The notes under the pieces were generated by a model. It was not told the DNA's origin and did no database searches. It worked only from the letters and a program-made list of their open reading frames with translations. A DNA stretch of 44,155 nt from Cytophagia bacterium CHB2 (lineage in GTDB: Bacteria > Zhuqueibacterota > Zhuqueibacteria > Zhuqueibacterales > Zhuqueibacteraceae): positions 1 to 44,155 of the forward strand of contig SZPB01000009.1 in NCBI GenBank assembly GCA_030263535.1, read 5' to 3'. This document shows positions 7,688 through 40,858 of this stretch, in pieces. Positions within the stretch are counted from its first letter, which is position 1. Each line of letters begins with the position of its first letter. A program made the position numbers and the translations under genes.

Positions 7688-9088
7688 TCAATCTCCGCTC
7701 GTAGACCTGTGACCATTGGCGGGCAACCCTTTCAGCGATCCCACGATGGTGACCGGCGTTCCCACCGCCGACCACTCATAAATCTCATCCATATGGCGAT
7801 TTTCCAATGCGACGCACCCGGCCGTCCAATTCACGCCTTTGCCGCCTTCTCCATGAACTTCAATCAATCCACCGATCGAGGCGAAACGCGACAATTCCCC
7901 TCTTTTCTGAGCCTCACCAAAGCGTTGGCGATCTTCGTGATTGGGATAATCGATCTGCAAGGCTTTATAGTAAATCGTTTGTTTGTCGGCTTTTTTCTTA
8001 ATCACGCGATAGCGCCCCTCGGGGGTTGCATTATCGCCGCGCTGACGTTTGTGACCGAGCCACCCTGGGCCAAGCTCAACGGGATATTCCGCGCGCAATT
8101 GGCCATCGGCATAAACAAAGCAGCGATGCGCCATTTTATCGACGATAATCGCGGTGCTGTCGGTTGCAGCCGACCACGCAATGGTTTCATTCACCCAGCG
8201 TTGCCATACCGGCACCTGGCGCAGATAAGCTTCCAGCGTTGCTTTCGTGGTGCTCCATGCGCCGTTCACCAGCGGCTCGGCGGTCTGCAATTTTGCTTTC
8301 GCCGTGAGAAAATCCCGGCGCCAATGCGCAAACTTGCTTTCAATAACAATCAACTCGCTGGCAACAAATTTTTGCCAAAGCGCTTTGTTGACGGGAATGC
8401 GCTTGGCCTGGTTACGGAAGTCTTCCACGGTTTGCTGCAAGCGTGCAATGCCGAAGGTGGTGAGCAGTTCCAGCGAGTCGCGCCGCGCCACGGCAAGCGT
8501 GCCCGCGATGCGGGCGCAGATCTGCGCGCTTTCCGCAAACTGATGCGTCGCTTGAAAATCACGATTCCAAAACCATTTGCGATTTTCATTTTGCCAGGCG
8601 GCACGCGCCTGCTCCAGGTAATACTCCGCTTGCTGCATCACTTCTGGCGCATAGCTCGCGGCTTCGCGATGCCGCGCTTCACTCACGGCCAGGCGCGCTT
8701 GTTCATAAATTTCCGTGGGCACGGGCGACTTTAAACGAACAATTGCGACGCCGACCGCCATCAGGAACATCGCGGCGAGTATTCCGGCCAGAATCCGTTT
8801 ACGTCCCAAGTGCAGCCGGATCGGCTGTATGAACGTGTTGAGAAAATGCCACGCTTCACGGCTTTTGCGCCGAAGCGTTTCGAACCAATGTTTCAGCACC
8901 GGGTAGGTTTCTTTCAGATGAACCTTGAAAGCGCTCAACCGCTTTCGGCTCCCGGCTCGCAGGGTTTCGATGGTGCGCCCCAACACCGGCTTGATGCCGT
9001 TGAGCAACAGGCTCATTCGCCGTAACGCGTTACGGTTTCTCATCCTGAGTTTCTCGGAAAGAGAGCGGTGAATGATTCGGAAAGTCAT
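7688..9088 (-). CDS. L,D-transpeptidase with long helical stalk and YafK-like active site
   Basis: 466 residues. A basic region of about 95 residues precedes a transmembrane helix (ILAGILAAMFLMAVGVAIV). Residues about 130-290 are helical and resemble the DUF4398 pattern (EARHREAASYAPEVMQQAEY). The last 150 residues form a YkuD-like catalytic domain (DNATPEGRYRV, LQIDYPNHEDR, EVHGEGG, WTAGCVALENRHMDEI) with catalytic Cys about 425. The catalytic loop reads TAGC where classical enzymes have SHGC; this variant, with PEGxY and YPN motifs, fits the YafK (DpaA) branch, of which E. coli DpaA releases Braun lipoprotein from peptidoglycan. The start could also be an internal ATG at 9043. The gene follows a DUF4398-type lipoprotein. 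Confidence 0.88.
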   Translation of the reverse strand: MTFRIIHRSLSEKLRMRNRNALRRMSLLLNGIKPVLGRTIETLRAGSRKRLSAFKVHLKETYPVLKHWFETLRRKSREAWHFLNTFIQPIRLHLGRKRILAGILAAMFLMAVGVAIVRLKSPVPTEIYEQARLAVSEARHREAASYAPEVMQQAEYYLEQARAAWQNENRKWFWNRDFQATHQFAESAQICARIAGTLAVARRDSLELLTTFGIARLQQTVEDFRNQAKRIPVNKALWQKFVASELIVIESKFAHWRRDFLTAKAKLQTAEPLVNGAWSTTKATLEAYLRQVPVWQRWVNETIAWSAATDSTAIIVDKMAHRCFVYADGQLRAEYPVELGPGWLGHKRQRGDNATPEGRYRVIKKKADKQTIYYKALQIDYPNHEDRQRFGEAQKRGELSRFASIGGLIEVHGEGGKGVNWTAGCVALENRHMDEIYEWSAVGTPVTIVGSLKGLPANGHRSTSGD

Positions 9089-9206
9089 ACGGGAGGATAC
9101 GCTTTACAAATAGAAAACCTCGGCCGGCGATCAAATGTTTTACCTGTTTGAGGTCAAATACAATCGCCGGTCGAGGCAGAAATGGGGAATTGACAGAGAT
9201 AATCCG

Positions 9207-9812
9207 TTAGCTACGTGCACCCATTTTTTTACCGATTGCGCTTTCCAATTCGCCGATCACGGAGTCGATTTTGCTCGCCGCGGCTTGCACTTTGTCGCGG
9301 GCCGTCAGAAAATCACCGCCGGTCAGCGCCGTTTGCGCTTCACTCAAACCGGATTCCACGGCATTGATGTCGCCCTGAATCAATTCCAGAGCAGCTTTGC
9401 CCTCTTTGCCCTTGGGCGCCTTGGCCATCAATTTTTTGGCGTCTTCGATTTTGGTCGTAACTTGGGCAATCAAGGCTTCCGCTTCCGCTTTCACGGTTTC
9501 CTTGTTGGTGGCAGCGGCATCTTTGGCTGAGTTGAATGCGGCAACAGCCGAGTTCAACAAGGCGGCAGCGCGATCATAGTTGCGCATCAGCGCAAACTTG
9601 GAATTCTGTTGTTCCACCTCAGCTTGCGCGGCACTCAAGGAGTCTTTCGCGGCGTTGAATAAATCCGCGGCGTAGCGATTCGCCTCAGCGGTTTGCGCCG
9701 CTTGCATCGCCGCATCTGCGTCTGCCAATAGCTGCGTGGGCGGTTCTTTGCAGCCCATCACAAACAGCAACATCACGATGCCGAGAGAACTCAAAAGAGT
9801 CTTGGCCTTCAT
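9207..9812 (-). CDS. DUF4398-like coiled-coil lipoprotein
   Basis: 201 residues. The N-terminus is a lipoprotein signal (MKAKTLLSSLGIVMLLFVMGC, lipobox VMGC with Cys 21). The mature part is almost wholly Ala/Glu/Lys/Gln-rich helix with heptad character (AADLFNAAKDSLSAAQAEVE), as in DUF4398 lipoproteins, and ends IGKKMGARS with a Lys pair near the C-terminus. A textbook ribosome site (AGGAGG at 9821-9826, 8 bases from ATG) suggests strong expression. It heads the minus-strand run containing two L,D-transpeptidases, one of which carries the same helical pattern. A structural, Braun-lipoprotein-like role joining outer membrane and cell wall is an inference. Confidence 0.85.
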   Translation of the reverse strand: MKAKTLLSSLGIVMLLFVMGCKEPPTQLLADADAAMQAAQTAEANRYAADLFNAAKDSLSAAQAEVEQQNSKFALMRNYDRAAALLNSAVAAFNSAKDAAATNKETVKAEAEALIAQVTTKIEDAKKLMAKAPKGKEGKAALELIQGDINAVESGLSEAQTALTGGDFLTARDKVQAAASKIDSVIGELESAIGKKMGARS

Positions 9813-23152: not shown

Positions 23153-23617
23153 TCACCTCTTTGGAGTCTTCAGCTTATTTTCGTATGTGTGAATGCCCTC
23201 GCGGATACGACGGCACAGGTCTTGTGATTTTTCGCAATCAGCAATCATTGTGATCGCCTGGCCTGCCGATGCCACCAACAGCGCCGCTGTTGCTTGCGAA
23301 TGAAACTCCTGGGAATGCAAATCATAATCCGCGACACGGCGACGATCGTAAAGGCGATGCAATATCCGGTAAAGCTGCTGGCCTTCGATCACGCCTGAAT
23401 TATTGATACGACCTTGCAACTGACCATGCGCTTGTGGGCCAATCGACGCCTCAAATCCCAAACCGGACAGAAAGGCGACACAACGATGAAAGACCGCGTA
23501 ATAAGCACGATTGGTCGCAGTGCGATAAGCCGCTTCAGAGGGCGCTTTGAGCAATTGCTGAGCAATTTGCAAAAAGTCGTCGCCGCGCATTCTCAAAATC
23601 CCCCGGCTACGAGACAA
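23153..23617 (-). CDS. HEPN domain protein
   Basis: 154 residues, all helical. The HEPN signature is visible: [20 protein letters not shown], with the R-x6-H motif (RAYYAVFH) that forms the RNase site in active HEPN proteins. The second conserved region, [13 protein letters not shown], is also typical. HEPN proteins usually act as ribonuclease toxins with a nucleotidyltransferase antitoxin; here the partner overlapping by 25 bases upstream is a different, unrecognised protein. The gene lies between thiolase and 3-hydroxyacyl-CoA dehydrogenase, which is unrelated in function, so it looks inserted. Activity is untested. Confidence 0.88.
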
Positions 23618-24054
23618 ATCATCGCGCCTTTTTCAATGGGAACTTGTTTGATCATTTCTCTGTCGAATTGATTCGTCTGAGCCAGCACTTCCTCGACGGT
23701 TCCAGAAACGGCGGCTTCAATCGTGATCCAACTGTTGTTTTCCAGCTCCGGATCAATGACGTATACAAACTCGATTTTCTTCACTGCGGCAAAACAATCG
23801 TACACCAATCGAACGGCTGTTTCCAAGTGTGGGAGCAAATCATTGACGACAGCGAACTGCCAAACTTCCCTGGAAACTTGATAACCGCCAATTTGACGAG
23901 CCGGAAGCGCGGATTTTTTTTCAGCCGGAGGCTGCCGCTGAACATGATAGGCAGCCATCGGCTCTGCCACTTGGTTTGCTGGAGGCGTCGTTTCCCGTTG
24001 ATAAGAAACGGGTTCATCTTCTGGCGGCTGCGGTTTTGGTCGCTGCATGTTCAT
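23593..24054 (-). CDS. Unrecognised partner of the HEPN protein
   Basis: The frame is open from 24183 but the ATG at 24054 is preferred because it forms an ATGA overlap with the thiolase stop; this gives 153 residues. The first 60 residues are Pro/Gln-rich and probably disordered (MNMQRPKPQPPEDEPVSYQR). The rest looks like an alpha/beta domain (LPHLETAVRLVYDCFAAVKK, IEFVYVIDPELENN, SWITIEAAVSGTVEEVL). It lacks the GSx10DxD motif of MNT antitoxins that usually accompany HEPN. It overlaps the HEPN gene by 25 bases, so the two are co-translated. A role as cognate antitoxin or regulator is inferred from position only. Confidence 0.7.
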   Translation of the reverse strand: MNMQRPKPQPPEDEPVSYQRETTPPANQVAEPMAAYHVQRQPPAEKKSALPARQIGGYQVSREVWQFAVVNDLLPHLETAVRLVYDCFAAVKKIEFVYVIDPELENNSWITIEAAVSGTVEEVLAQTNQFDREMIKQVPIEKGAMICLVAGGF

Positions 24055-25256
24055 ATCCTCGAGTAGCCCGCATTTTCCACAATCACCGTCGAGGCTTCGC
24101 CGCCGCCGATGCAAATCGCCGCCATGCCGTATTTCTTTTTGTATTCTTGCAGCACATGAATCAAGGTGACGAGAATGCGGCACCCGCTCGCGCCAATGGG
24201 ATGACCCAGCGCCACGGCGCCGCCGTGCACATTCAGTTTTTCCAGGGGAATGCCGAGTTGCTGCTGCGCCGCGAGCGCAACCACGGCAAAGGCTTCGTTG
24301 ATTTCAAAAATATCGATTTTATCCAATGAAAATGCCGATTTCTTGAGAATCTTGTCAATCGCATCGATCGGAGCCATCGTAAACCACTCCGGCTTTTTCG
24401 CAGCAGAAGCTTGACCGACGAGTTTTGCCTGCGCCTTGACGCCCAACTTCTCGGCAATCTCTCTGGCCATCACCACCACCGCGGCAGCGCCATCATTTAT
24501 TTTGGAGGCATTCGCAGCGGTGATTGTACCTTCTTTGTCAAATGCCGGACGCAACGCCGCCATTTTTTCGAAGTTGGCCTTCTTTGGTTCTTCATCATCG
24601 GCAATCAAAATGGGATCGCCTTTTTTCTGCGGCAGGGGTACGCCCACGATTTCTTTTTGGAATAAACCGTTTGCCTGCGCCGCTTGCGCGCGTTTGTAGC
24701 TCGTTATCGCGAATTCATCTTGCCTGCCGCGCGGGATGTTGCATTCGGCTGCGCACAGTTCTGCCGCATTGCCCATGTGAAAATCGTTGTAGACATCCCA
24801 TAAACCGTCTTTGATCATGCTGTCAACCAGCTCGCCGTGGCCGAGGCGATAGCCGTCGCGCGCTTTGCTCAACAGATATGGTGAATTGGACATGCTTTCC
24901 ATACCGCCGGCCACGACAATATCGGCATCGCCAGCCATGATGGCTTGCGCCGCGAGCATCACCGCTTTCAAACCGGAGCCGCAGACTTTGTTGATCGTCA
25001 TGCACGTCACCTCGACCGGCAAGCCTGCTTTGATTGCCGCTTGCCGCGCCGGGGCCTGTCCCACGCCGGCTGGCAGCACGCAGCCCATGATGACTTCATC
25101 AACATTCTTGGGATCGAGTCCGGCTCGCCGCACCGCTTCTTTCACCACCAGCGCGCCCAATTCAGTGGCAGAGAACGGCGCCAATGCGCCTTGAAACGCG
25201 CCTATCGGCGTGCGGCATGCACCGGCGATAATGACTTCACGAAACGGCGTTGGCAT
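24051..25256 (-). CDS. Acetyl-CoA C-acyltransferase (thiolase)
   Basis: 401 residues. Active-site Cys about 92 (NKVCGSGLKAV), GGMESMSNSPYLL, the His loop NVHGGAVALGHPIGASG and the second Cys in ICIGGGEAS are all present. It cleaves 3-ketoacyl-CoA with CoA in beta-oxidation or condenses two acetyl-CoA in the reverse direction. Its start has AAGGAG nine bases upstream. It is followed by an ATGA overlap to an unrelated accessory gene pair. Together with the neighbouring dehydrogenases and hydratase it makes a near-complete beta-oxidation set. Confidence 0.96.
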   Translation of the reverse strand: MPTPFREVIIAGACRTPIGAFQGALAPFSATELGALVVKEAVRRAGLDPKNVDEVIMGCVLPAGVGQAPARQAAIKAGLPVEVTCMTINKVCGSGLKAVMLAAQAIMAGDADIVVAGGMESMSNSPYLLSKARDGYRLGHGELVDSMIKDGLWDVYNDFHMGNAAELCAAECNIPRGRQDEFAITSYKRAQAAQANGLFQKEIVGVPLPQKKGDPILIADDEEPKKANFEKMAALRPAFDKEGTITAANASKINDGAAAVVVMAREIAEKLGVKAQAKLVGQASAAKKPEWFTMAPIDAIDKILKKSAFSLDKIDIFEINEAFAVVALAAQQQLGIPLEKLNVHGGAVALGHPIGASGCRILVTLIHVLQEYKKKYGMAAICIGGGEASTVIVENAGYSRI

Positions 25257-25324: not shown

Positions 25325-25380
25325 CAAGCGACAAACAACCAGGAACAAGCAACCAGCAACGAGCAACAAGCAACCAGCAT
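25325..25380. repeat. Heptanucleotide tandem repeat, eight units (GTTGCTN family)
   Basis: On the plus strand eight 7-base units run without gaps: CAAGCGA, CAAACAA, CCAGGAA, CAAGCAA, CCAGCAA, CGAGCAA, CAAGCAA, CCAGCAT. The array ends exactly at the stop codon of the metallo-hydrolase. The reverse complement unit is (G)TTGCT(N). The same unit occurs at 31054-31088. Confidence 0.85.
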
Positions 25381-26225
25381 CAAGAGTCAATATTCACCGG
25401 CTCAATCTTCCAATTCCCCTCTACCCGCTGCAAATATCCCGCTTTGATGCGCGCGCCGTGCTCGAAAATCAACAACCATTGTTCTTCGAATGCTTGCTGT
25501 AACACTCTTGGTTTAACCTGCATCGTCTGCGCCGGGAACACATCATATCCCATCACATAGACGGTTCTGAGATGAGAAACCGTCGGCACCAAATCCGCCA
25601 GGAAACAAATCGTGCGACCGGCGGTTTTGATTTTGATGATGGCATGATCCTGCGTATGCCCGCCAGTGACAATGCTTTCGATTCCGGGCATAACTTCCCC
25701 CGTGCCTTCCAAAAATCTTAAAACGCCGTGCTGATGCAGCGGCACAAAATTCTCCTGCAGATAACTCGCACGGCTGCGCGGGTCGGGGTGCAGGCCGTAT
25801 TCGTAGTTGCCGCGCTGGCAGAAATATTGGGCATGCTGAAACGTCGGCTCCAACTCTCCGTCTGCATTGCGGCGCGTGCTCCAGCCGATGTGGTCGAAGT
25901 GCAGATGTGAAAGAATGACGTGGGTGATTTCTTCGGGCTGGAGGCCATGCCGGGCAAGCTCATCCAACATGGTATGCTCGCGCTGCACCGCATAGATGCC
26001 GGCAAATTTCCGGTCAAATTTATCGCCGATACCGCAATCAATGAGAATTTTCTCTTCGCCGCGGAGAACGAGCAGCGAATTCAATCCCAGCAGAATGCGG
26101 TTCTTCTCATCCGGTGGATCGTGACGCTCCCACAGCACACGCGGCACCACACCGAACATCGCGCCGCCGTCGAGGCGAAACGTGCCGTCGGAGAGCAGGA
26201 AGATGTCAACGTCGCCGAATTTCAT
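25380..26225 (-). CDS. Metallo-beta-lactamase-fold hydrolase
   Basis: 281 residues. The zinc-binding signature HLHFDHIGW and the second His in TGGHTQDH, with the preceding VILSHLH, define the fold. The sequence type (LLSDGTFRLDGGAMFG at the start, GYDVFPAQTM, YVMGYDVFP) is like the YtnP/AttM-related hydrolases. Substrate unknown; a thioesterase- or lactonase-like role beside acyl-CoA genes is plausible. Its ATG forms an ATGA overlap with the upstream Toprim-like gene, so it is translated together with the ATPase module although it may belong to the acyl-CoA operon. An eight-unit 7-base repeat begins at its stop codon. Confidence 0.88.
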   Translation of the reverse strand: MKFGDVDIFLLSDGTFRLDGGAMFGVVPRVLWERHDPPDEKNRILLGLNSLLVLRGEEKILIDCGIGDKFDRKFAGIYAVQREHTMLDELARHGLQPEEITHVILSHLHFDHIGWSTRRNADGELEPTFQHAQYFCQRGNYEYGLHPDPRSRASYLQENFVPLHQHGVLRFLEGTGEVMPGIESIVTGGHTQDHAIIKIKTAGRTICFLADLVPTVSHLRTVYVMGYDVFPAQTMQVKPRVLQQAFEEQWLLIFEHGARIKAGYLQRVEGNWKIEPVNIDS

Positions 26226-26848
26226 TTGGACTGTTCAATCAAAGACATTGGGGGGCGTCCGAACCATTTCACCAAAGCAGATTTAAAATCAGAGAAGCTT
26301 CTGTCTCTGCAATTTTTCAAAGTGACTGTAGATGCCAAATTTGCATATATAGCCGCGGAGCGGCGCAGATGTGATTTTTTAAGAGCATCTTCCATGGCTG
26401 CCTTTGGATCTTTCGGTTTCAAATTTTCATCTCGTTCATAGTGCGAGAGTATTTCCTTGAGCTGCTTTTCCGACAATCCCAAAGATCTCGAAACATTGGG
26501 AGAGTCAGCCCAAACCCAGATTTCCAACTCTGGGTCTAAAACCACGACTTGATTTCTTTCATTCCAGCCTGCTTGATCAAGGCGCTCTTTTACAATCTGC
26601 TGGATTTGTCGTGCTGATTCTTTTGAGCCACATCCATCACGATCAAACATTACCAGGGCAAAACGATAAAGCCGCTGGAATGGCCGCAAGAAATCTTGGC
26701 ATTTGCCAAAAACGCCAGCATCTCTTTCTGGATGAACAAAAATTTCAAATGAGGGCGTTAGTATACCGAGAGCTGGTTCACGCATTAACAATTTTTCAGT
26801 CGCGGCTCGCATCTGACTGTCTGCAGCCAGAATAATCAAATCCTTCAT
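26222..26848 (-). CDS. Toprim/DUF4276-like partner of an AAA ATPase
   Basis: 208 residues, not assigned to a named family with certainty. Features: an N-terminal strand then helix (LIILAADSQMRAATEKLL), an acidic motif after a hydrophobic strand (ALVMFDRDGCGS, Asp69/Asp71), and a conserved-looking VVLDPELEIWVWAD (Glu107, Glu109). This order of acidic strand ends resembles degenerate Toprim-like proteins such as DUF4276/DUF4435. The gene overlaps the upstream ATPase gene by four bases (ATGA) and the downstream metallo-hydrolase by four. Low G+C, like the ATPase. Pairs of this kind, for example PARIS, act in phage defence; that function is inferred here. Confidence 0.7.
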   Translation of the reverse strand: MKDLIILAADSQMRAATEKLLMREPALGILTPSFEIFVHPERDAGVFGKCQDFLRPFQRLYRFALVMFDRDGCGSKESARQIQQIVKERLDQAGWNERNQVVVLDPELEIWVWADSPNVSRSLGLSEKQLKEILSHYERDENLKPKDPKAAMEDALKKSHLRRSAAIYANLASTVTLKNCRDRSFSDFKSALVKWFGRPPMSLIEQSK

Positions 26849-28131
26849 CCCAGAACTCCAGAGGCAAAAAGAACACTGAGATTAACTTCACCCCTCCAGT
26901 CCTTTAGTTTTGGATGTTCCGTTCCGACAATAACATCTGTCGCCCCAGTCAGCGTTTTACCGAAACAGAGAATTTGCTCTAACCTCGCCAAACTAAGAAA
27001 AATCGGTGAATGGCTTGCCACTAAAATTTGATTATCATACACCGAAGAAAGCGATTCATAAACTGCTTCAACGGCTCTTGGGTGCAATCCATTTTCGGGC
27101 TCTTCAATTAAATAGATTGATCCTTCTGAAGGCAAATAGGCAATTAACGTCAATGCTAACAGTCTCAACGTTCCATCTGAAACCAACCATGACGGTACAC
27201 GGGTTCCCGTTTGATAGATAACCTCGAGAAATAAATGCCGATCCTCTTGCCGCTCCTGAACCTCAATTGCTTGAATATCAGGCAAGGCTGTTTGTACATG
27301 TGCAAGCCATTGTTGATAACGGTTTGAATCTTTTTGCAGTTCGCGTATAGCCAAGGGTAAATTCGAACCATCTGGAACAAAACGTTTTGGCGTTAAAGGC
27401 GAACAGGGTTGGCGCATAGCTAAACTGTTCAACGCTAAAACCTGAATGCCTTCCATAAGAAGCCTTTTTGCCCACGTCGAAACGGGAAATTTTTGCTCAT
27501 CTTCAGGTAGATTTGCCAGCGACGATTTCCGTGGCCCTAGTCTGAATAAATTATTCCAATCACCTGACTCGGCTTTGAACCAATCATTCCCCGATTCGCT
27601 GATTTTATTAACAACCTTCCGCCAGCCCATCGGAGAATGCTTGCGTGGTGCAACCAAAATTGAATCTACGACAGGATTTTCACGTGGAAAACCAAGAGAC
27701 AGTTCTATTTGGGGTGCCTGACTCTCAGGTTGACGTCGATAGGATTTCTTCCCCTCATCTGACTTTAACCAAAAAACTTCATTTAAGAGTGCGGCTTCAT
27801 TTTCAGATGAATAACCCAAAGCTATCTCGTAACGGCATTGTGTGTAAGCGCCATTGTTCTTCAAGCCATACAAACGTTCGGGTAATGCAAATTCAATTGC
27901 CAACTCAAAGCGATTACCGAGCCGATTCCAGGTCATTTCTTCAATCGAACGCGCACGCCGGCGAATACTTTCCTCCGGTCCAAATTTCAACATGTCACCG
28001 ACGAAGGCAACAGCATCTAAAAATGTTGTTTTGCCACTCGCATTTGGTCCGATCAATATGTTGAAAGGAGAAATTTTTTGGCTCAAACAGCGCAGCGAGC
28101 GATAATTGAGAGCTTCAATTAGGCAAATCAT
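26845..28131 (-). CDS. AAA15/AAA21-type ATPase, SMC/ABC-like (defence-associated type)
   Basis: 428 residues. Walker A IGPNASGKTTF (27-37), ABC-type signature region VSDGTLRLLALTL (about 318-330), Walker B SIYLIEEPENGLHP (about 338-351) and the switch His in ASHSPIFL (about 374) are complete, so the ATPase should be active. The middle region lacks long coiled coils, which points to the AAA15/OLD-like class rather than RecF or SMC. There is no Toprim domain at its own C-terminus; instead the next gene, overlapping by ATGA, encodes a Toprim-like protein. One 60-base line (27001-27060) has 22 G/C against 33 in a line of the neighbouring dehydrogenase, so acquisition by transfer is likely. Confidence 0.88.
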   Translation of the reverse strand: MICLIEALNYRSLRCLSQKISPFNILIGPNASGKTTFLDAVAFVGDMLKFGPEESIRRRARSIEEMTWNRLGNRFELAIEFALPERLYGLKNNGAYTQCRYEIALGYSSENEAALLNEVFWLKSDEGKKSYRRQPESQAPQIELSLGFPRENPVVDSILVAPRKHSPMGWRKVVNKISESGNDWFKAESGDWNNLFRLGPRKSSLANLPEDEQKFPVSTWAKRLLMEGIQVLALNSLAMRQPCSPLTPKRFVPDGSNLPLAIRELQKDSNRYQQWLAHVQTALPDIQAIEVQERQEDRHLFLEVIYQTGTRVPSWLVSDGTLRLLALTLIAYLPSEGSIYLIEEPENGLHPRAVEAVYESLSSVYDNQILVASHSPIFLSLARLEQILCFGKTLTGATDVIVGTEHPKLKDWRGEVNLSVLFASGVLG

Positions 28132-28144
28132 ATTGTGTCGTCAC

Positions 28145-29290
28145 CTATATTTCCTTCAACACTTCCCGGGAAATAATAATCCGCAGCACTTCGCTGGTGC
28201 CCTCGCCAATCTCCATGAGCTTGGCATCGCGCCAGTAACGTTCGACCGGATAATCCATGAGATAGCCGTAGCCGCCGAATATCTGAATGGCTTTGCTGCA
28301 GGCGCGCATCGCCATTTCGCTGGCAAAGAGCTTGGCCATAGCCGCTTCTTTGACGAAATTCTTGCCGGCGTCGCGCAGTTGCGCAGCATGATGCACCATC
28401 AAGCGCGCGGCATGAATCTCCGTGGCCATGTCCGCCACGAACCAGCGGATGGCTTGAAAATCTGCGATCGGCTTGCCGAAGGCCTTACGTTCCATCGAGT
28501 AAGCAGAACCTTTGTCCAATGCCGCCTGCGCCAGACCCACAGCCATCGCGCCAATGCCAATGCGGCCGCCGTCGAGAATTTGCATGGCGTACTTAAAACC
28601 TTCGTTTTCCTCGCCGAGCAAATTTGCCGCCGGTACTTTGCAATTATCAAACGAAACCTGCCGCGTATCGCTCGCGCGCAAGCCGAGTTTGTTTTCTTTC
28701 TTGCCGATGATTACGCCGGGGAACTCGCGCTCGACAATAAAGGCGCTGATGCCGCGGGTTTTGGAGACTTGCGCATTGGTTTTGGCGAATACGACATAGG
28801 TGCCGGCATACCCGCCGTTGGTCACGTACATTTTGCTGCCGTTCAAAATGTAATGATCACCCTGGCGCGTCGCGGTGGTGGAGAGCGCGGCGGCATCGGA
28901 GCCGCTGTGGGGCTCGGTCAGGCAGAACGAGCCAAACTTTTTGCCGGTCAGCAAATCGGGCAGATATTTCTGTTTCTGAGTTTCGTTGCCAAACAGGTAA
29001 ATGGGTGTGGCGCACAGCGAGCAATGCGCCGCGACGGATAGCGTGGTGGCGCCGCAAACCCGCGCCAGTTCCTCGATCATCAACACGAATGAAACCGTGT
29101 CGAGATCGCCGCCGCCGTATTTTGAGGAAAAGGGAATGCCGAGAAAACCCAATTCCCCCATCTTGCGCAAATTTTCCGCGGGGAATTCCATGGTTTGATC
29201 GATTTCGGCGGCCTTGGGTTCGATTTCATTTTTGGCAAACTCGCGCACCGTGTCGCGAATCATGAGCTGCTCATCGGTAAAATTCAGCAT
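28145..29290 (-). CDS. Acyl-CoA dehydrogenase (second paralogue)
   Basis: 381 residues. Motifs: SFCLTEPHSGSDAAALST, YILNGSKMYVTNGGYAG, QIFGGYGYLMDYPVER and EIGEGTSEVLR. The last retains Glu (about 363) where isovaleryl-CoA dehydrogenases usually have a small residue at this site, so a straight- or short branched-chain substrate is more likely than isovaleryl-CoA. It is clearly related to, but distinct from, the enzyme at 21042. The gene precedes the AAA ATPase by 13 bases, and the enoyl-CoA hydratase lies upstream on the same strand with a broken small gene between. Confidence 0.95.
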   Translation of the reverse strand: MLNFTDEQLMIRDTVREFAKNEIEPKAAEIDQTMEFPAENLRKMGELGFLGIPFSSKYGGGDLDTVSFVLMIEELARVCGATTLSVAAHCSLCATPIYLFGNETQKQKYLPDLLTGKKFGSFCLTEPHSGSDAAALSTTATRQGDHYILNGSKMYVTNGGYAGTYVVFAKTNAQVSKTRGISAFIVEREFPGVIIGKKENKLGLRASDTRQVSFDNCKVPAANLLGEENEGFKYAMQILDGGRIGIGAMAVGLAQAALDKGSAYSMERKAFGKPIADFQAIRWFVADMATEIHAARLMVHHAAQLRDAGKNFVKEAAMAKLFASEMAMRACSKAIQIFGGYGYLMDYPVERYWRDAKLMEIGEGTSEVLRIIISREVLKEI

Positions 29291-34096: not shown

Positions 34097-34555
34097 TCAT
34101 TCGTCAAATCTTCTACCGCGCAGTGCGTTTTGAATATTGCGGCGATTCGGCACGCTTATCAAACCGAACTGGCGAAAGTGCTCATCAAGCGTGAAGGCGG
34201 AATCAAGCGACAACTTGCGCATGAGAGCGAAACTCGTGCAATCCGTAAAGCTGAAAGTTTTATCCCGATATTTTTTGAAAATCGCCCAAGCTTCATTCTC
34301 GATGGCGTTGTCCACCGCAAGAGTTGAGGTGACCTTGCTCGCGCGCACGTACTCGCCAAATTCTATCGCGCTCAGGTGATCGACTCTGATGCGCAAGAGC
34401 GTGAGCGTTTCGTCAACTACATAATTCGAAGTAAAAATAAAGCTCCCTTTTCGTTTGAGATCGGCCAATGTGCGCTTTGCGATTTTGTGAAAGGGATCGT
34501 CTTTATCGTACAACGCTTTCCACGCGCTCGTATCGACAAACACTCTGCTTCTCAC
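34097..34555 (-). CDS. PIN-domain ribonuclease toxin (VapC-like)
   Basis: 152 residues from a GTG start that forms a GTGA overlap with the antitoxin stop. PIN acidic residues are in place: Asp8 (VFVDTSAW), Glu49 (VVDETLTLL), Asp105 (FSFTDCTSFALM) and Asp124 (FTLDEHF), so the Mg2+-dependent RNase site should be intact. The upstream gene encodes a matching antitoxin. VapC toxins cleave tRNA or rRNA when the antitoxin is lost. The pair lies between atuA and an atuA fragment and looks like an insertion. Confidence 0.9.
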   Translation of the reverse strand: MRSRVFVDTSAWKALYDKDDPFHKIAKRTLADLKRKGSFIFTSNYVVDETLTLLRIRVDHLSAIEFGEYVRASKVTSTLAVDNAIENEAWAIFKKYRDKTFSFTDCTSFALMRKLSLDSAFTLDEHFRQFGLISVPNRRNIQNALRGRRFDE

Positions 34556-34860
34556 GCCTTGCCTCCGTACAAATAGCGGTCGTGCTCAATCGCGCTGTCG
34601 TCGTTTTTTCTGCCCGAAGCGGCCTTCCCCACCAACTTCCATAAGGGGTCGTTCAAGTAATCTTTTTTTGAAATCTTTGGTGTGGTCTGCGGCGGCAATT
34701 CGACCAAATGATAGATGACGTGCACGAGCGCTTCATACGTTGGCCGCGAGCTGCTTTTTAGCTTACGCAGCAAGCGCAGCTCTTGCGCAAAGAGGTCAAC
34801 GTCATTTTGCGCGCGTTGGCTCTGCGCGCGTTTGCGCGGCTTTGATAATATTTTTTTCAT
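34552..34860 (-). CDS. VapB-like antitoxin
   Basis: ATG 34860 is preferred: it overlaps (ATGA) the stop of the preceding short frame; 102 residues. A basic N-terminus (MKKILSKPRKRAQSQRAQ) and a helical middle (SSRPTYEALVHVIYHLVEL) are followed by a C-terminal toxin-binding tail DPLWKLVGKAASGRKNDDSA and HDRYLYGGKA, which is a common ending in antitoxins of PIN toxins. It should neutralise the PIN toxin encoded next and repress the operon. The exact VapB family is not certain. Confidence 0.82.
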   Translation of the reverse strand: MKKILSKPRKRAQSQRAQNDVDLFAQELRLLRKLKSSSRPTYEALVHVIYHLVELPPQTTPKISKKDYLNDPLWKLVGKAASGRKNDDSAIEHDRYLYGGKA

Positions 34861-35027
34861 GAACAAGGCTCCGAATTTTGTTTGCAAGCATGCATAATGC
34901 TCATCGTCACCTCGGCGAGCTCATCGAGCGTGAGATAATGCAGCGGCCCTTCGCGCACGATCCGCGCGGTGATCTCCTGAAGCAGTTCCTCGGTGATGCC
35001 GAAAATGTTTTGCTCAACGACGGCCAT
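34857..35027 (-). pseudogene. Truncated atuA-like fragment upstream of vapBC
   Basis: A 56-codon frame from ATG 35027 (MAVVEQNIFGITEELLQEIT) continues with VREGPLHYLTLDELAEVTMS, the same sequence as residues near 32-53 of the intact AtuA protein, then changes to HACKQNSEPCS and stops at 34857, overlapping the antitoxin start as ATGA. DNA 34891-34958 matches 33912-33979 at 64 of 68 bases. The fragment lacks all other AtuA domains. It may be a remnant from the insertion of the vapBC genes, although the stop/start overlap means it could still be translated as a leader. Confidence 0.75.
34891..34958. repeat. Direct repeat, atuA-derived, copy upstream of vapBC
   Basis: This is the second copy of the 68-base repeat described at 33912-33979. 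Confidence 0.85.
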
Positions 35028-40257: not shown

Positions 40258-40858
40258 CTAAGCTAATTCCGTTGCTATTTTCACGGTCGCGGCTTCTTTT
40301 ATGCTGACATCCGGCAATGAATAAACGAAGTCAGGACAAAAATCAGCGCCATTGAGCCCAAAAATCGAACCAGAAATATCATCCACAGCAACCAGACTGA
40401 AATACTTCGGGTCATGAAGCGGCTCGAAGATCGGACCGTTCAGATACGGCATTACGTCAAATACCCTGATCTCGCCGTTGCGAAAAGCGACTTTTGGACA
40501 AAAATTTTCGAGGGGCGTGCCATCTTTAAAATATAATGTGGCATTGTATTGCTCCGGCGGTTCGATCTTCAATAACGTTTCGCCTTTTTCTAGCCCGATT
40601 CCAATTCCTTATCAGCTCGTCGCGATGAAGCACAGCCCATTCTCGGACAAGGCGTAAGGTCCGCGCCGACAATTTCCCTTCCATGACTTCGAGTGGTTGA
40701 ATGTTCATGGTCGCACCATATTCACCATAGTAAACGTGAATGTGCGGTGTGGGATGATCGTTATGGAACATATAAATCGAAATACCGAAAAAATGAGAGA
40801 TTCTTGGTACTTGCAATCCCCTTGTATTGTGGCCGCTCGCCGTTATGAACCCGACCAT
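40258..40858 (-). pseudogene. DUF4160-DUF2442 pair, apparently fused and frameshifted
   Basis: Frame one (ATG 40858 to 40526) is DUF4160 (VPRISHFFGISIYMF, HPTPHIHVYYGEYGA, LVREWAVLHRDELIRNW) with an abnormal tail, RKRRNVIEDRTAGAI. Frame two (to 40258) is DUF2442-like (LYFKDGTPLENF, NGEIRVFDVMPYLNG), with only a TTG at 40572 to start it. Removing one A from AGAAAAAGG near 40608 joins them as NWNRARKGETLLKIEPPEQY, and LLKIEPPE is the normal end of DUF4160. The first strand of DUF2442 seems lost, so the join may be a fusion. DUF4160/DUF2442 pairs are widespread, probably toxin-antitoxin-like. Domain calls are surer than the gene model. Confidence 0.7.

Follow-up and report, generated by a model that had tools for sequence, protein, structure and literature searches.

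Defence pairs with an OLD-type ATPase

The methylation-associated defence system (MADS) is the multi-gene, methylation-based system to which databases assign genes of the MAD3 and MAD4 families. Other described systems combine two comparable proteins. In PARIS (AriA/AriB, class 4 OLD), the Toprim RNase AriB is kept bound by a hexameric ABC ATPase until phage triggers such as Ocr cause its release (PMC12409363). Dyads of this kind, called OLD-ABC/TOPRIM, have also been described in BREX and DUF499 (Hma) systems, where they serve as backup effectors (PMC12839542). For the archaeal OLD-family protein Cran1, a change to a housekeeping role has been reported (PMC12796447).

A MAD3-MAD4 pair in a fatty-acid-oxidation operon

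The window, i.e., the whole stretch of 44,155 nucleotides that was analysed (contig SZPB01000009.1 of Cytophagia bacterium CHB2), carries on its reverse strand two genes for which an earlier note had proposed a possibly new defence pair, with MAD3-MAD4 of MADS as one hedged guess. The first gene (26845-28131) codes for an ATPase of 428 amino acids and ends in a 4-base ATGA stop/start overlap (26845-26848) with the gene of a 208-residue partner (26222-26848). A second ATGA overlap (26222-26225), also present in G001 and G002, connects the partner gene to that of an MBL-fold hydrolase (25380-26225) and forms the junction with the host operon, whose upstream gene codes for an acyl-CoA dehydrogenase (28145-29290). 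Both host genes were identified by Pfam and the dehydrogenase gene is syntenic in relatives without the pair. The two reading frames and their overlaps are located precisely as first described.

The guess about the families was right, since both proteins exceed the curated equivalog cut-offs of NCBIfam: the ATPase scores 485.4 bits against NF047739 (MAD3; cut-off 420) and the partner 200.7 bits against NF047734 (MAD4; cut-off 160). That the pair might be new is not supported, because both families already have names and dyads of the OLD-ABC/Toprim class have been described before (PMC12839542, PMC12409363). It is of a known kind (MAD3-MAD4, HEC-01, or OLD-ABC with a Toprim-like partner) and constitutes a real, horizontally acquired and selected cassette.

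MAD3 is an OLD/PtuA-type ABC ATPase and not an AAA+ protein. Pfam returns only a generic AAA_21/AAA_15 match, and its AlphaFold2 model (pLDDT 91) matches PtuA, retron ATPases, Rad50/SMC heads and OLD in Foldseek searches at E-values of about 1e-10. As had been read from the sequence, the Walker A, signature, Walker B and switch histidine motifs are all present, and their key residues are invariant in 70 homologues. The Walker A motif GPNASGKT (residues 28-35; 28027-28050) contains the invariant G28, N30, G33 and K34, and the ABC signature SDGTLRLLALT (residues 318-328; 27148-27180) the invariant S318, D319, G320 and R323. In the Walker B region IYLIEEPENGLHPR (residues 339-352; 27076-27117), which includes YLIEEPE (residues 340-346), E343, E344, E346, N347, G348, H350 and P351 do not vary, and neither do the switch His374 (27010-27012) and S375.

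Although both proteins belong to MADS families, the methyltransferase, the specificity subunit, the kinase, MAD7 and MAD8 are absent beside the pair, which stands alone in a metabolic operon. Since these components are missing, the locus is not a MADS system. The 37 other proteins of the window matched five PADLOC families, with no mad gene among them. Elsewhere in the genome the mad1, mad5 and mad8 models do find matches, but they also do so in most control genomes and are therefore generic, and the mad7 model matches neither the genome nor the controls. With HEC-01, the Hma-embedded candidate, the pair shares the best PADLOC assignment of the ATPase (HEC-01A, 3e-38) and the assignment of the partner to HEC-01B (1e-8), in addition to mad3 and mad4, and close relatives lie between HmaB and HmaC; however, there is no Hma locus in the window and most relatives are found outside Hma too. 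PARIS has the same arrangement of an OLD-type ABC ATPase and a small Toprim-type effector in separate adjacent genes, and the ATPase also matches AriA (1.6e-33). The difference from PARIS is in the partner, for which PADLOC gives no AriB match and in whose family the second Asp of the DxD motif is not conserved.

Fold and acidic centre of MAD4

The AlphaFold2 model of MAD4 (pLDDT 94.7) shows the order β1-α-β2-α-β3-α-β4, followed by helices. This alpha/beta order, together with acidic residues ending β1 and β3, fits that of Toprim domains. Foldseek searches against the PDB and BFVD gave nothing below an E-value of 1e-3; the best matches, at 4e-3 to 6e-3, are weak, and the weak matches include GajA, a RloB-like protein and primase Toprim domains, and the partner is not wholly without Toprim-like structural matches. 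The MAD4 profile matched no sequence of a solved structure up to an E-value of 1. As no Foldseek match falls below 1e-3, a proven Toprim fold was rejected as a description of MAD4.

The partner has no Pfam match at an E-value of 0.1 and does not reach the gathering score of DUF4276 (PF14103). However, hhalign of the MAD4 profile with a DUF4276 profile, made from DUF4276 proteins of related genomes, gave 96.7% in a full-length, collinear alignment over 185 columns, whereas reversed, column-shuffled and unrelated controls gave at most 0.3%. The aligned motifs correspond to each other. Asp10 (26819-26821), at the end of β1 and at the Toprim/DUF4276 Glu position, is Asp in 66 of 71 homologues and matches the Glu of EGxTE in DUF4276. 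Asp69, which ends β3 within FDRDGCG (26627-26647), is invariant (71/71) and matches the β3 Asp. The PELExW motif (PELEIW, residues 106-111, after β4; 26516-26533) matches HExEAW; P106, E107 and W111 are present in all 71 homologues, and position 109 is Glu in 66 and Asp in the remaining 5. MAD4 resembles the partners in ATPase/DUF4276 pairs in this alignment and differs from them in the lack of a direct Pfam match and in its first acid, which is Asp and not Glu-Gly. None of the papers searched mentions DUF4276.

The two acidic motifs that had been read as Toprim-like are therefore conserved at D69, P106, E107 and W111, but not at D71, the second acid of FDRDGCG, which is Asp in only 5 of the 71 homologues and Glu in 46. 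Consequently, FDRDGCG is not a classical Toprim DxD motif. The Toprim-like nature claimed for the partner agrees with both its predicted topology and its remote homology to DUF4276, and less so with the Foldseek E-values. From the model and the profile alignment, we conclude that MAD4 is probably a Toprim-like, DUF4276-related protein with a variant acidic centre. Since the second DxD Asp is not conserved and no structural match is stronger than the threshold given above, MAD4 can be regarded only as a putative nuclease.

A separate observation concerns L128 (9287-11880), where a DUF4276 gene, with an ATPase match just before it, is situated directly upstream of MAD3-MAD4, so that two apparently related pairs stand in tandem.

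Insertion site and history of the cassette

The cassette is an insertion at the junction between the acyl-CoA dehydrogenase and MBL genes. In five genomes of the same order (G003, G005, G007, G008 and G009) the dehydrogenase gene is followed by the MBL gene with no pair between them, and in G005 the stop codon of the former abuts the start codon of the latter. G001, a member of the same genus, carries an intact pair at this junction, and in G002, also of this genus, the pair is reduced to a fused pseudogene in which MAD3 residues 1-262 run into MAD4 residues 62-200 and the otherwise invariant W111 is altered. This distribution indicates that the cassette was acquired no later than the root of the sampled genus and decayed afterwards in one species. 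A MAD4 match is present in 6 of the 82 genomes of the phylum.

Base composition also sets the cassette apart. Both genes have a G+C content of 43.9%, versus 55.3% in the acyl-CoA dehydrogenase gene and 54.4% in the MBL gene, and their GC3 values are 0.38-0.39 versus 0.65-0.69 in the flanking genes. The low G+C content initially noticed for the ATPase thus holds gene-wide, but the value of 37% then given came from a single 60-base sample. The synonymous divergence of the pair between G000 and G001 is comparable to that of neighbouring genes. For the same two genomes, dN/dS (NG86/YN00) is about 0.06-0.10 for MAD3 and 0.18-0.19 for MAD4, values that are rough because dS is saturated; they indicate that both genes are under purifying selection between these two species.

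In G081, a second genome of the same species, the absence of MAD4 was considered as variation within the species and rejected as such, since the match stops inside the acyl-CoA dehydrogenase gene at an apparent contig break; being broken at the site, G081 is uninformative about the presence of the pair. In G003, from a sister genus, the dehydrogenase and MBL junction holds other inserts, namely a 68-aa ORF and what seems to be the beginning of a PIN toxin in truncated form (MAVVIDTNIIFSMLVAK...; no Pfam match; L042, 6060-6394), which suggests that the junction may be a recurrent landing site.

Distribution and genomic contexts of the relatives

Relatives were collected by scanning 84,980 species genomes with the MAD3 profile and taking the best 80 loci, which belong to more than 20 phyla. 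MAD4 is found in 74 of these 80, nearly always directly downstream of MAD3, and 71 of 76 testable junctions show a 4-base NTGA stop/start overlap. The divergences of the two proteins are correlated (Mantel r 0.66; best of 1000 permutations 0.22). The pairing of MAD3 with MAD4 is obligate: the genes do travel together in many genomes, and the pair is conserved well beyond close relatives and acyl-CoA genes. In the tree, the genus of the window is placed far from the other copies of its own class, and same-class copies appear in unrelated clades, as expected for horizontal spread. At the E-values used, relatives of the ATPase were found in no phage record and in only two plasmid records, both of them distant.

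About 11 of the 80 best loci cluster with HmaA/HmaB/HmaC-type genes (DUF499/BREX-related), these Hma loci being gene clusters of which the members of five were checked against models. The pair is placed between HmaA/HmaB and HmaC in L129, L081 and L102; the full order in L129 is helicase, DUF1156 methylase, MAD3, MAD4 and DUF499 ATPase. Other copies are associated with restriction-modification genes. For instance, in L080 (138-8012) the pair lies inside a type I restriction operon (HsdM-HsdS-MAD3-MAD4-HsdR), in L116 a type III methylase gene ends 4 bp upstream of it, and in L126 a IIG enzyme gene precedes and overlaps a MAD3 gene, with no recognised MAD4 there. The tree requires at least eight changes between Hma and other contexts. 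The defence role originally proposed is thus suggested by association, through the Hma loci and the neighbouring restriction-modification genes.

Most of the sampled relatives stand alone. Hma genes are missing from 32 of the 35 loci whose flanks extend for at least 5 kb in either direction, and only a handful of the 115 neighbours of non-Hma pairs match PADLOC at 1e-10. Some pairs are found within 50 bp behind core genes, such as those coding for icd, RNase E/G, gyrB or an epimerase. The window does not constitute a defence island, since the neighbours of the pair are core genes (SecA, topoisomerase, NusB and others). Rfam has no match in the window. The expectation that the pair would lie in defence islands is therefore borne out by some relatives, in Hma and restriction loci, but not by the window or by most stand-alone copies, which lack defence neighbours.

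The L102 locus, which contains Hma genes and MAD3-MAD4, also carries a 390-aa ORF (8519-9691) with matches to DarT and then DarG, each below its cut-off, resembling a fused DarTG-like toxin-antitoxin.

Possible functions of the pair

The locus is a stand-alone MAD3-MAD4 cassette, acquired horizontally and seamlessly lodged in a fatty-acid-oxidation operon, and is likely to have a PARIS-like defence function based on a sensor ATPase and a nuclease. Horizontal mobility is indicated by the same-class copies in unrelated clades, the five pair-less members of the order and the atypical G+C content. The host operon probably now drives expression of the cassette, and the two would be linked through position and expression rather than through function. 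By analogy with the control of AriB by AriA in PARIS, the most likely mechanism would be that MAD3 senses a sign of infection, e.g., a phage protein or an anti-restriction activity, and controls MAD4, a presumed metal-dependent nuclease whose release or activation would stop growth or phage replication. The recruitment of the pair into several restriction-type loci suggests the guarding of restriction; stand-alone copies might guard unlinked systems or sense phages directly. Unlike many mobile defence genes, copies were found in no phage records and are rare on plasmids, which counts against this explanation, as do the setting of the window outside defence islands, the small number of PADLOC matches among nearest neighbours of stand-alone pairs, and the unconserved second DxD Asp. 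No assay of a stand-alone MAD3-MAD4 pair was found.

It is rather unlikely that the pair has been domesticated, i.e., that it has lost its activity in defence and been recruited, like Cran1 (PMC12796447), to a housekeeping task such as replication, repair or growth control. Such a role would be in line with the vertical inheritance of the pair in two species, where purifying selection keeps it, with the gyrB, icd and RNase E/G genes that immediately precede some stand-alone copies, and with the fact that most neighbours are not defence genes. However, the patchy presence in the phylum, the decay in G002 and the repeated changes of context point to the turnover typical of accessory defence genes.

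The pair might also behave as a toxin-antitoxin-like addiction module, in which MAD4 would be a toxin held by MAD3 and the module would persist by killing cells that lose it, with no specific sensing of phages. Translational coupling and strict co-occurrence fit this idea, as does the presence of other small toxin-like genes (HEPN, PIN) in the same operon and junction. It seems quite unlikely, since a 428-aa ABC ATPase with invariant catalytic motifs is unlike simple antitoxins, the repeated placement inside restriction-modification and Hma systems argues for a sensor role, and the pair is nearly absent from plasmids. It is highly improbable that the pair works in fatty-acid metabolism as a component of the acyl-CoA operon. 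This reading is already largely refuted by the pair-less sites in five other genomes of the order and by the unrelated contexts of relatives in more than 20 phyla, despite the seamless position and the overlap that couples the pair to the MBL gene by ATGA in three species.

Returning to the defence cassette, a broader proposal can be made tentatively. MAD3-MAD4 might be an autonomous two-gene immune unit of more than 20 bacterial phyla that is carried within host operons, for the most part as a chromosomal cassette standing alone, and whose Toprim-variant catalytic centre (D69, E107, possibly K144 and K149) is partly common to DUF4276; MADS, Hma and restriction operons would then be secondary hosts that have repeatedly picked it up. 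The remaining interest of the locus resides in this stand-alone state, common to most relatives sampled in spite of the database label, and in the link between MAD4 and DUF4276. Should the pair act on its own, its MADS label would mislead annotation, one part of MADS could be tested in the form of a two-gene unit, and MAD4 could be studied together with the DUF4276 partners as a single nuclease-like superfamily. The locus also provides a case of a defence-type cassette kept under selection within a core metabolic operon, outside any defence island.

Other small modules in the window

A second two-gene insert (23153-24183, reverse strand) is present in the same operon, between the thiolase and 3-hydroxyacyl-CoA dehydrogenase genes. 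It codes for a HEPN-like protein (PF05168, E 9e-4) and an unknown 196-aa ORF; it is shared with G001 and has no match at this junction in G002 or other relatives. Further away, also on the reverse strand, a PIN-domain gene (PF01850, 1e-14) right after a 111-aa partner ORF (34100-34887) is likely to form a toxin-antitoxin pair, and a DUF4160/DUF2442-like gene pair (40261-40858) is probably a small module of the toxin-antitoxin type. Finally, a dispersed simple repeat of the AGCAACCAGCAACGAGCAACA type (25327-25385) is located between the MBL and thiolase genes, with many matching places in G081.
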